Part shown: one piece after another, positions 15,440-54,022 of the stretch
How positions within the stretch are numbered: position 1 is the stretch's first letter
Layout of the letters: each line of letters opens with the position of its first letter
Assembly (NCBI GenBank): GCA_944387385.1
Contig: CALXES010000010.1
Span: forward strand, 1-54,022
Origin: an uncultured Clostridia bacterium
GTDB taxonomy: Bacteria; Bacillota; Clostridia; TANB77; CAG-465
DNA length: 54,022 nucleotides
Reading direction: 5' to 3'
The notes under the pieces: model-generated
What the model was told of the DNA's origin: nothing
What the model saw: only the letters and a program-made list of their open reading frames with translations
The model's database searches: none
Made by a program: the position numbers and the translations under genes

Positions 15440-15685
15440 AAAAAAACAGTCATTAATCCTTAATATTTTAAGGACGAATGACTGTGATTCGCGGTACCAC
15501 CTTAATTCATACAAACTATTTGTATGCACTTAATTAACAGATTTACCGACTGCAACGGAGTATACTTACACATACTTAAACTTCAGTATACCAGCTCCCA
15601 AGCTACCTTCAGATATGTTTGTTTAAAAGATCTTTCAGCCTATGAATCTTTCTCTCTAAAAACAACCTCTATCTTACTCCTCTTG
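15440..15685 (-). promoter_or_regulatory. T-box leader, valine-specific
   Basis: The minus strand holds the T-box sequence AAGGTGGTACCGCG (15490-15504 region) and then a long terminator stem, ACAGTCATT paired with AATGACTGT and an inner CCTTAA/TTAAGG, followed by seven T. Stem I closes with GGAGTA/TACTCC. In its specifier loop a GTA codon (15567-15569, read on the minus strand) matches Val, which agrees with valS downstream. Uncharged tRNA-Val should stabilise the antiterminator. Confidence 0.93.
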
Positions 15686-15714
15686 TTCTTTGCTTTTAAT
15701 TTAATTATGTTCTA

Positions 15715-18669: not shown

Positions 18670-19090
18670 TTGCATTTTAAGTAAGTTGTTTATAGTAGTT
18701 TCTTTATAGGTAAATGTAAGGGATGCATTTGATCGCTAATGTCTTTGTATATGGATTTAAACGAAGGTTTAATCTAATAAAGATTTAACGAGAAGAATGT
18801 ATTGAAATTGTAAAACGTATTAAAAAAGTGGTTTGAATTTGTTATTATATTATCTATTAACTTTTAGTTGATATGATGTATTTTAGCAAGTTATATGATA
18901 CGTTGTATGATTGTTTGAGCTTGGCATTGAATATTTAAACCGGTAAAGTGTTCAAGCAAGAAGTGCATTTCATCGAAAACATCTAGTGGTGCAAACTTAG
19001 TAAGATGAAATATATTTGGATTTTAGTCCAGATGTATCCCACTTTATTTATTAAAGAAACATTGAGAACTTTCAATGTTCTTTTTTTTTG
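18670..19090 (+). ncRNA. candidate structured RNA or long structured 3' untranslated region
   Basis: These 390 bases before the terminator have no supported ORF. Paired segments include ATTTCATC/GATGAAAT (18967-18974 with 19004-19011), TAAAGTG/CACTTTA (18944-18950 with 19040-19046), GCTTG/CAAGC (18919-18923 with 18953-18957) and TGGA/TCCA. The GCTTG and TAAAGTG helices cross, as in a pseudoknot. A similar 12-mer, TGCATTTGATCG and TGCATTTCATCG, occurs twice. A possible promoter (TTGAAT, 16 bases, TATTAA) lies at 18833-18860. It could be an independent RNA of about 220 nt or the tail of the 17440 transcript. Confidence 0.4.
19057..19090 (+). terminator. terminator after the structured stretch
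   Basis: The stem ACATTGA/TCAATGT is followed by C and nine T. Confidence 0.9.
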
Positions 19091-19102: not shown

Positions 19103-19133
19103 TAAAAAGGCTACCCCCGAAGGGATAGCTTGA
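19103..19133 (-). terminator. terminator of the tRNA-like transcript
   Basis: On the minus strand GCTATCCC, TTCG loop, GGGGTAGC (one G-T pair) is followed by C and five T. It is very GC-rich for this genome. Confidence 0.9.
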
Positions 19134-19134
19134 A

Positions 19135-19242
19135 AAAAAATTATTAAAAAGGATTACCCCAATCACAAGGATTGAAGCAAGTAGATCAGATTCGAACTGA
19201 CACACCGTCTATGACGAGCTCTTCCGTGTTTGAGCTTACTAC
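19135..19242 (-). ncRNA. tRNA-like small RNA without a normal anticodon arm
   Basis: The predicted transcript starts at 19242 and opens with GTAG, which pairs with CTAC at its T-arm base. A D-arm GCTC/GAGC with a GG-containing loop follows, and a T-arm of five pairs (GTCAG/CTGAT) holds the exact T-loop TTCGAAT. Where a tRNA has a 17-base anticodon arm there is only CGTC-ATA-GACG plus GTGT. The acceptor has just four pairs and no CCA. It has its own promoter and a GC-rich terminator, so it is expressed rather than a dead fragment. A decayed tRNA gene is the main alternative. Confidence 0.5.
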
Positions 19243-19248
19243 AATTAT

Positions 19249-19277
19249 ATTATATCATTTAGATTTTAAAAATTCAA
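19249..19277 (-). promoter_or_regulatory. promoter of the tRNA-like RNA
   Basis: The minus strand reads TTGAAT, 17 bases, TATAAT, and puts the start at or next to the first base of the GTAG acceptor strand. Confidence 0.8.
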
Positions 19278-26487: not shown

Positions 26488-26618
26488 TAAAAAAAGACTA
26501 GCTACGGCAAGCTAGTCAAGAAAACTTATCTTTCGGTTATGCCGCAGGAATTAGCACCTTACTTTTGCAGGTTGCTGGACTTCATAGGGCCTGTCCCTCA
26601 GTCACTCTGGATAAGATA
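26488..26618 (-). promoter_or_regulatory. SAM-I (S-box) riboswitch with terminator
   Basis: On the minus strand the aptamer begins CTTATCCAGAGTGACTGAGG and contains the conserved CAGCAACC and AAGGTGCTAA segments, closing with GATAAG. The expression platform is the stem GACTAGCTTG/CGTAGCTAGTC followed by seven T. It precedes metK, the classical target: high SAM stabilises the aptamer and lets the terminator form. Confidence 0.97.
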
Positions 26619-33599: not shown

Positions 33600-33852
33600 A
33601 AGTTAATATTAAAGCGTTGATTGAGAGAGTAGCATATTATTAAGCTAAAGCGAGTTAGTGATGGTGTGAGACTAATAGTGAATGATATTGTGAAGAGAGC
33701 TCATGAGTGACTATCAGAACTGAAAATATATAGTAAAAGTATGATAGTACGTATAACCTACGTTACAGGTAATTGAGTGGTCTATAATTTATAGGCAACT
33801 AGAGTGGTACCGTGCGTAAAGCACCTCTAGAATAACTAGAGGTGCTTTTTTG
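33600..33852 (+). promoter_or_regulatory. T-box leader, arginine-specific
   Basis: The T-box sequence GAGTGGTACCGTGCG lies at 33802-33816 and the terminator GCACCTCTAG/CTAGAGGTGC plus six T at 33821-33851. Stem I contains ATATTATT/AATGATAT (one wobble) and a GA-rich specifier loop in which AGA (33694-33696) is the Arg codon. Together with argG downstream this fits control by uncharged tRNA-Arg. Confidence 0.92.
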
Positions 33853-36661: not shown

Positions 36662-36750
36662 TGGTGGGAATGACCGGAATCGAACCGGTACGAGGTTTAA
36701 CCCTCGCAGGATTTTAAGTCCTGTGCGTCTGCCAGTTCCGCCACACTCCC
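36662..36750 (-). tRNA. tRNA-Leu (anticodon TAA), copy 1
   Basis: The 89-base minus-strand gene has the acceptor GGGAGTG/CATTCCC, a long variable arm (class II), T-loop TTCGAAT and encoded CCA. The anticodon stem CAGGA/TCCTG holds loop CTTAAAA, anticodon TAA. It is identical to copy 2 at 40055. Confidence 0.97.
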
Positions 36751-40054: not shown

Positions 40055-40143
40055 TGGTGGGAATGACCGGAATCGAACCGGTACGAGGTTTAACCCTCGC
40101 AGGATTTTAAGTCCTGTGCGTCTGCCAGTTCCGCCACACTCCC
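40055..40143 (-). tRNA. tRNA-Leu (anticodon TAA), copy 2
   Basis: The 89 bases are identical to copy 1 at 36662, with CCA encoded. The flanks and promoter differ from those of copy 1. Confidence 0.97.
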
Positions 40144-53464: not shown

Positions 53465-54022
53465 ATATCTCTCCTTAAAATATAAATTTAGATGGTAATT
53501 TTTTAAGTAAATACTATGGTTTAGGTCCAGTAGAATTTCTCTATTTCTTACTAAACATTACTATTTAGCTGTTTACATTTAAAAGAAATACTTTTTAGTC
53601 ACCTTAAAAAGAACTGGATCACCACTTAAGTCCATACTTTAATCCTTAAAAAATCTTATTCTTTTTAGAATAAACATTCTAGAAGTTTTCCTTTGGTGTG
53701 CACTTGTACAATTATTAGTCTCTTTTGCAGAAATAATTTCATTATCAGATAAAAAATATATATGGCCATACACATTTTTTGTCTTTTAATTGATAAATCC
53801 CGATATTACCACTCAAGACAGGCTACGCTACATATTGTGTCTTGGCACTTTATGTAGGTTATACTAGATAAAGCTATCATCATATTTAGAATCATCTAGC
53901 CTCAGCGAAAATAGGAGAAGTACTATATGCCGTTATAATATTTCCTATATTCTTTACTCCCTGAACACACGCAAAACTGGGCGTTTCGCGCATAAACAAG
54001 AAACTTCATCGGTATGCCTTTT
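53465..54022 (-). ncRNA. ole: probable OLE RNA, 5' end beyond the window
   Basis: The stretch has no ORF and lies immediately upstream of the OapA-like gene on the minus strand. It is dense in helices: a 15-bp hairpin at 53751-53780 with two G-U pairs, CGCGAAAC/GTTTTGCG (53970-53990, one G-U), CTAGAT/ATCTAG (53864-53899), ATAGGA/TCCTAT (53911-53948) and two crossing 7-bp helices at 53814-53857. All wobbles pair only in the minus-strand RNA. OLE RNAs are about 600 nt, so the 5' end is probably just right of the window. The call rests on position, size, partner gene and structure; I did not align it to the known consensus. Confidence 0.7.

Follow-up and report, generated by a model that had tools for sequence, protein, structure and literature searches.

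The window, a stretch of 54,022 nucleotides from an uncultured Clostridia bacterium, contains a complete small-RNA gene on its minus strand (19277-19105). The predicted RNA of about 138 nt (19105-19242, minus strand) consists, from 5' to 3', of a 62-nt tRNA-like domain, a second hairpin (hairpin 2), a single-stranded U-rich tail and a terminator hairpin. The element is found in 12 species of one genus, the genome of the window included (114 related genomes searched). There is good support for its existence as a gene, for its fold and conservation, and for its non-translational nature. The role that we favor, at somewhat less than an even chance, is that of a free-standing, dedicated non-coding RNA that mimics the tRNA elbow outside translation, with the elbow docking a tRNA-binding protein and the tail serving as a second contact.

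Promoter, start and terminator of the RNA gene

A -35 hexamer TTGAAT (19272-19277) and an extended -10 element TGA-TATAAT (19249-19257, the hexamer TATAAT itself at 19254-19249) lie on the minus strand with a 17-nt spacer. All 12 carriers have TTGAA[A/T] and TGN-TATA[A/C]T at the same spacing. The distance from the -10 hexamer to the first base of the fold is 6-7 nt in 12 of 12 carriers, and in the genome of the window this base is G19242, 7 nt past the -10. From the promoter and terminator positions we infer that the tRNA-like RNA gene is transcribed from 19242, in agreement with an earlier note on this DNA, which had placed the RNA start from a consensus promoter at the first base of the fold. 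The intrinsic terminator (19105-19129, minus strand) comprises a hairpin with a UUCG loop (19129-19110) and a U-run reaching about 19105. Its sequence differs among carriers and the hairpin is kept. The end of the RNA at about 140 nt given in the earlier note is close to the length predicted here. Two terminator-like sites were found against 0.3 expected, and the folding energy of the 140-nt transcript gave z = -2.9 relative to shuffles. A covariance model, R1, built from 11 of the 12 carriers, matches 19134-19242 at 117 bits.

A cloverleaf with an elbow and without an anticodon

The tRNA-like domain (19181-19242, minus strand) is formed by the acceptor GUAG/CUAC, a U8 A9 linker, a D-arm, an arm with a triloop, the variable loop GUGU and a T-arm. 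RNAalifold independently returned the same cloverleaf from 11 aligned sequences without being given it. In this alignment 100% of cells are paired in the acceptor and the T-arm, 98% in the D-arm and 95% in the anticodon-like arm. The D-arm AGCUC/GAGCU (19217-19236, minus strand; alignment A5) has 5 bp and an invariant GG, the equivalents of G18-G19. The T-arm (19185-19201, minus strand) also has 5 bp, and its loop UUCGAAU keeps the equivalents of T54, T55, C56, G57, A58 and T60 invariant. Between them lies the shrunken anticodon-like arm CGUC-AUA-GACG (19206-19216, minus strand; alignment A5). Its triloop drifts among carriers (AUA, AAU, UUA, UAU and UUU), and in two of them (G014 and G020) the last pair of the arm is broken, leaving 3 bp and a 5-nt loop. 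The architecture is as the earlier note had described it: a D-arm, a T-loop TTCGAAT, an anticodon arm of 4 bp with a triloop (AUA in this sequence), an acceptor of four pairs with no CCA after it, and a second hairpin, CAATC/GATTG, which we place at 19180-19154.

The D-loop GG and the T-loop UUCGA make the elbow contacts of tRNA. These determinants (GG and UUCRA) are present and invariant in all aligned sequences, and decoding features are absent across the carriers, which have a 4-bp acceptor, a drifting 3-nt loop and no CCA. An invariant GG/UUCGA together with a drifting triloop is the pattern that would be expected of an elbow kept without an anticodon.

The compensatory changes in relatives that the earlier note had proposed to look for are found in the acceptor, the anticodon-like arm, the T-stem and hairpin 2. 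Three species have CG in place of UA in the acceptor. In the anticodon-like arm UA is replaced by GC (CGUC/GACG to CGGC/GCCG), in the T-stem GC is replaced by AU, and four pairs of hairpin 2 vary on both sides; these counts are of sequences rather than of events, which number about one each in the acceptor, the arm and the T-stem and several in hairpin 2. Of the alignment cells, 92% are paired, versus at most 47% when the partner strand is slid by 1-3 columns. Random decay across strains, the outcome that would have spoken against a maintained RNA, came out negative, as the fold, the promoter spacing and the tail are kept in 12 species.

The acceptor is predicted to be only marginally stable. 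In most species the thermodynamic minimum leaves it open, with a GUG/UAC pairing that extends the T-arm, and the energies of the two forms differ by no more than about 1 kcal/mol. For pair 1-63 the predicted probability falls between 0.03 and 0.46 in most species and reaches 0.73 in one.

Hairpin 2 and an invariant 21-nt tail

Hairpin 2 (19154-19180, minus strand) directly follows the 3' strand of the acceptor; it covaries and is variable in length. It is followed by a 21-nt tail, AUCCUUUUUAAUAAUUUUUUU (19134-19154, minus strand), which lies between the two 3' hairpins, is single-stranded except for its first base and is identical in 12 of 12 species. The earlier note overlooked this tail, the most conserved part of the element. 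Variable sites number 0 of 20 in the tail versus 46 of 51 fourfold-degenerate sites in the adjacent gene, for which the mean pairwise nucleotide identity among carriers is 78%. The intergenic DNA beside the element cannot be aligned between species. By these comparisons the tail carries the strongest constraint in the element.

Distribution

The carriers make up 12 of the 28 genomes of the genus, and all of them have the element at one locus. They are uncultured gut Clostridia, and several of their names point to animal guts (rabbit, sheep and water deer). A search of 287 genomes of the order with R1 found the same 12 carriers at 101-123 bits. Across these and 391 genomes of the class no relative was found outside the clade, and those of the weak matches that were checked were ordinary tRNAs, with the single exception of G002 (described below). 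A degenerate pattern of the triloop architecture, run against 84,980 species genomes, returned beyond the carriers only matches that the model rejects, except for one partial match of 34 bits in an archaeon, which we take as chance. There was no match to the RNA in phage and plasmid records and no exact match to the tail in viral contigs.

A tree of the adjacent radical SAM protein groups the carriers in a single clade with a support of 100/100. On the RimP tree the carrier clade also holds G011 and G025, both without the RNA and without a close radical SAM orthologue. Both may be missing from these two genomes either through loss or through assembly gaps. In one carrier (G004, L012 305-1315) a 336-aa ORF that resembles a HipA-type kinase, a name given by reading the sequence, lies between the RNA and the radical SAM gene.

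Relation to known RNA families

The RNA could be assigned to none of the families tested. An Rfam scan, at gathering thresholds and at E values up to 5, gave no meaningful match, including none to tRNA (RF00005) or YrlA, and ARAGORN called no tRNA or tmRNA in the element. A tRNA identity was rejected because of the lack of a 7-bp acceptor, a 7-nt anticodon loop and a 3' CCA, and a tmRNA identity because the element has neither a tag reading frame nor a chargeable CCA acceptor and is not called as a tmRNA. Elsewhere the genome has a normal tmRNA gene of its own, and there are 33 tRNA matches. By eye there is no clear parent tRNA, and the arms resemble those of generic elongator tRNAs. Neither the TROVE (Ro60/Rsr) protein nor Hfq was found in any of the 28 genomes of the genus, with positive results in the control genomes (Deinobacterium for TROVE, five genomes for Hfq).

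A second tRNA-like RNA upstream of rimP

The exceptional weak match of R1 is a different RNA in G002, a genome outside the carrier clade, upstream of rimP (L230 1570-1740); a counterpart lies at the same locus in G024 (L231 1630-1390, minus strand), a sister species likewise outside that clade. We named the gene rimP on the basis of its sequence and its neighbors. The G002 RNA has its own TTGACA...TATAAT promoter, a 7-bp acceptor GCUCUAU/AUAGAGC and D- and T-arms, and its anticodon arm is replaced by an arm of 7 bp that GAAA closes; it continues into a long hairpin and then a terminator, without a CCA. In the G024 RNA the corresponding arm has 8 bp and a 6-nt loop. The Rfam tRNA model accepts the G024 RNA at 45.5 bits, although this arm is not of the type of a decoding tRNA. 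The fold of the second RNA rests on the comparison of the two species, because the lowest-energy fold of the whole G002 transcript does not show the full cloverleaf.

The second RNA resembles the first in having its own promoter, a tRNA-like fold with a non-decoding arm, no CCA and a hairpin followed by a terminator. It differs in its 7-bp acceptor, a leader of about 60 nt, a longer arm, the lack of an invariant tail and its locus. No tRNA-like RNA was found upstream of rimP in the 10 of the 12 carriers of the first RNA that are readable there. The occurrence of two non-decoding tRNA-like RNAs in one genus makes chance decay still less likely, and it may mean that the genus makes such RNAs repeatedly. 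At the same locus, a hairpin GTGAGAGGG...CCTCTCAC in the rimP leader itself is conserved across nearly all 28 genomes. Long intergenic stretches 420 bases upstream of rimP in two genomes (L246 in G023 and L248 in G021) look structured and are of another kind than the tRNA-like ones.

Discussion

The kept elbow, the conserved promoter and the invariant tail bear on several other explanations of this locus. The earlier note had offered a decayed tRNA as one option, and the related possibility of a scar left by a tRNA fragment of a mobile element can be treated with it. Either would account for the missing CCA, the short acceptor, the lack of a 7-nt anticodon loop and the resemblance of the D- and T-arm sequences to the elongator tRNAs of the genome. 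Decay is effectively excluded, because the elbow is kept and the tail is invariant although most fourfold sites of the adjacent gene vary and the intergenic DNA is unalignable; conservation in 12 species with compensatory changes, a fixed promoter spacing and a terminator also argue against it, and the divergence of the adjacent gene speaks against near-clonal carriers. The searches of phage and plasmid records and viral contigs count against a scar. A divergent YrlA-type Y RNA acting with a Ro60-like ring protein would fit a tRNA-like domain with D- and T-arms and no CCA, and a size inside the 90-150 nt of YrlA (PMC8394870). We nevertheless regard it as very improbable, in view of the absence of a TROVE protein from 28 of 28 genomes, the lack of a YrlA match in Rfam at E values up to 5, and the unpaired 5' and 3' ends in tRNA order, whereas YrlA superposes on tRNA only via circular permutation (PMC11472068). 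There is hardly more to be said for conservation at the level of DNA, in which the block would be a site of regulation or attachment in the interval that separates the convergent gene from the divergent radical SAM gene. In favor of it, the tail has a convergent gene on one side and a divergent one on the other, and proteins can bind to AT-rich tracts. However, the helices covary as RNA, the spacing from promoter to fold is fixed, and conservation of the RNA persists in G004, where another ORF and a distance of about 2 kb separate it from the radical SAM gene.

Two further explanations accept an RNA and assign it another mode of action. The invariance of the tail could be due to an RNA target; the RNA would then be a trans-acting antisense sRNA whose tail (UCCUUUUU...) pairs with A/G-rich ribosome-binding sites, the tRNA-like fold only capping and stabilizing the 5' end. 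The tail, exposed between hairpins, includes UCCUUU, the complement of the Shine-Dalgarno-like AAAGGA, and start regions of the same genome pair with it at -7.7 kcal/mol, compared with -5.0 kcal/mol for coding controls (764 predicted genes, with starts assigned by a simple rule, in about 0.85 Mb of the 1.5-Mb genome). However, the preference for start regions is nearly as marked with shuffled tails of matched composition (13 of 40 equal or exceed the real tail), and it is even more marked with the reversed tail, so that this test gives no specific support for pairing with ribosome-binding sites. Matches elsewhere to 17-mers of the tail with up to one mismatch are few and mostly unshared between species, and no long conserved target was found among them. 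An invariance of 21 nt is moreover longer than the usual seed, and Hfq was not found among the 28 genomes. We judge the antisense explanation, the main rival, to be rather unlikely. A bistable RNA is less probable by far. In it, CUAC (CUGC in three species) would pair either with the 5' GUAG in a closed form or with the conserved variable-loop GUG in an open form, and a ligand or protein would shift the balance. Both pairings are possible in all species, and in most the two forms are nearly equal in energy, as described above. Against this, two-sided changes are seen only in the acceptor pairing (UA to CG in three species, probably a single event); in the alternative, U-A to U-G is the only change. 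Ordinary tRNAs also often have GGU in their variable loops, and the elbow contacts, which the energy model ignores, would favor the closed form.

In the elbow-mimic reading, which we prefer, the elbow formed by the D-loop and T-loop would offer a surface on which a protein or ribonucleoprotein specific for tRNA elbows could dock. The best candidates would be PNPase or an enzyme of tRNA maturation or modification. Since hairpin 2 comes directly after the 4-bp acceptor, a single long helix can form by stacking of the T-arm, the acceptor and hairpin 2. Such end-to-end stacking of the short acceptor on hairpin 2, as judged from the secondary structure, would bury the 5'-triphosphate end and should protect the RNA from decay from the 5' side. 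The invariant U-rich strand between two hairpins would make a second specific contact, and the RNA would therefore act as a tether or scaffold. The elbow tertiary contacts, the docking and the tether role are what we infer from the anatomy of the RNA. The earlier note had spoken of a "tRNA mimic with a regulatory role"; the mimic half stands, as a maintained, non-decoding tRNA-like RNA, and the support covers that half only. An RNA that keeps the elbow and drops both working ends, in bacteria without detectable Hfq or Ro60, is therefore a natural probe of recruitment through the elbow alone. It is also small, well bounded and conserved enough for pull-down and mutation tests.

To our knowledge, tRNA mimicry outside translation has been described for only a few bacterial RNAs (tmRNA, YrlA and tRNAOther). 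The tRNA-like domain of tmRNA is likewise tRNA mimicry inside a larger RNA, but the RNA described here has no CCA and no tag reading frame. YrlA, for which we drew on a review and a structure-comparison paper, is a small non-coding RNA with a non-decoding tRNA-like domain that keeps the D- and T-arms, and it works via protein binding: its two ends pair to hold Rsr, and the tRNA-like domain binds PNPase (PMC8394870). This precedent is what makes PNPase a candidate partner here, by analogy; it counts against a PNPase tether that in YrlA the enzyme works with Rsr, which was not found in this genus. YrlA is permuted relative to tRNA (PMC11472068), whereas the present RNA follows the tRNA order with unpaired ends. 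Its 5' end forms the acceptor and its 3' end is a separate terminator hairpin, so there is no end stem like that of YrlA. The genus also lacks a TROVE gene through which a YrlA-like RNA would act, and an invariant U-rich tail is added. tRNAOther of Bacillus cereus is, like this RNA, a tRNA-like RNA of a Firmicute; it is expressed and has a role outside translation (PMC3399842), expression being predicted from the promoter and terminator in our case. In contrast to tRNAOther, with its Trp anticodon and poor charging in vitro, the RNA here has no anticodon loop and no CCA, and it continues through a second hairpin and a tail to a terminator of its own. A bolder proposal, against which we lean somewhat, is that it represents a Ro60-independent class of tRNA-mimic scaffolds, in which an unpermuted cloverleaf that does not decode occupies the exact 5' end and is followed by an invariant U-rich strand that binds protein or RNA, possibly with a switch between a closed and an open acceptor.

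Other RNAs and genes in the window

A non-coding stretch of 420 bases (18670-19090, plus strand) follows a 417-aa gene and ends in a terminator at 19059-19090. It matches the Bacillus sRNA ncr1015 weakly, at 32 bits and below the cut-off, and is strongly variable between species. Two T-box leaders (15467-15699, minus strand, and 33608-33831, plus strand) and one SAM riboswitch (26523-26617, minus strand) are also present. Two tRNA-Leu(taa) genes with equal scores in the tRNA model (36662-36750 and 40055-40143) enclose about 3.3 kb, which holds a ROK-family gene, an HD-domain gene and a GH25 lysozyme with LysM repeats. An OLE RNA scoring 306 bits occupies 53476-54022 on the minus strand, with its 5' end cut by the end of the window.
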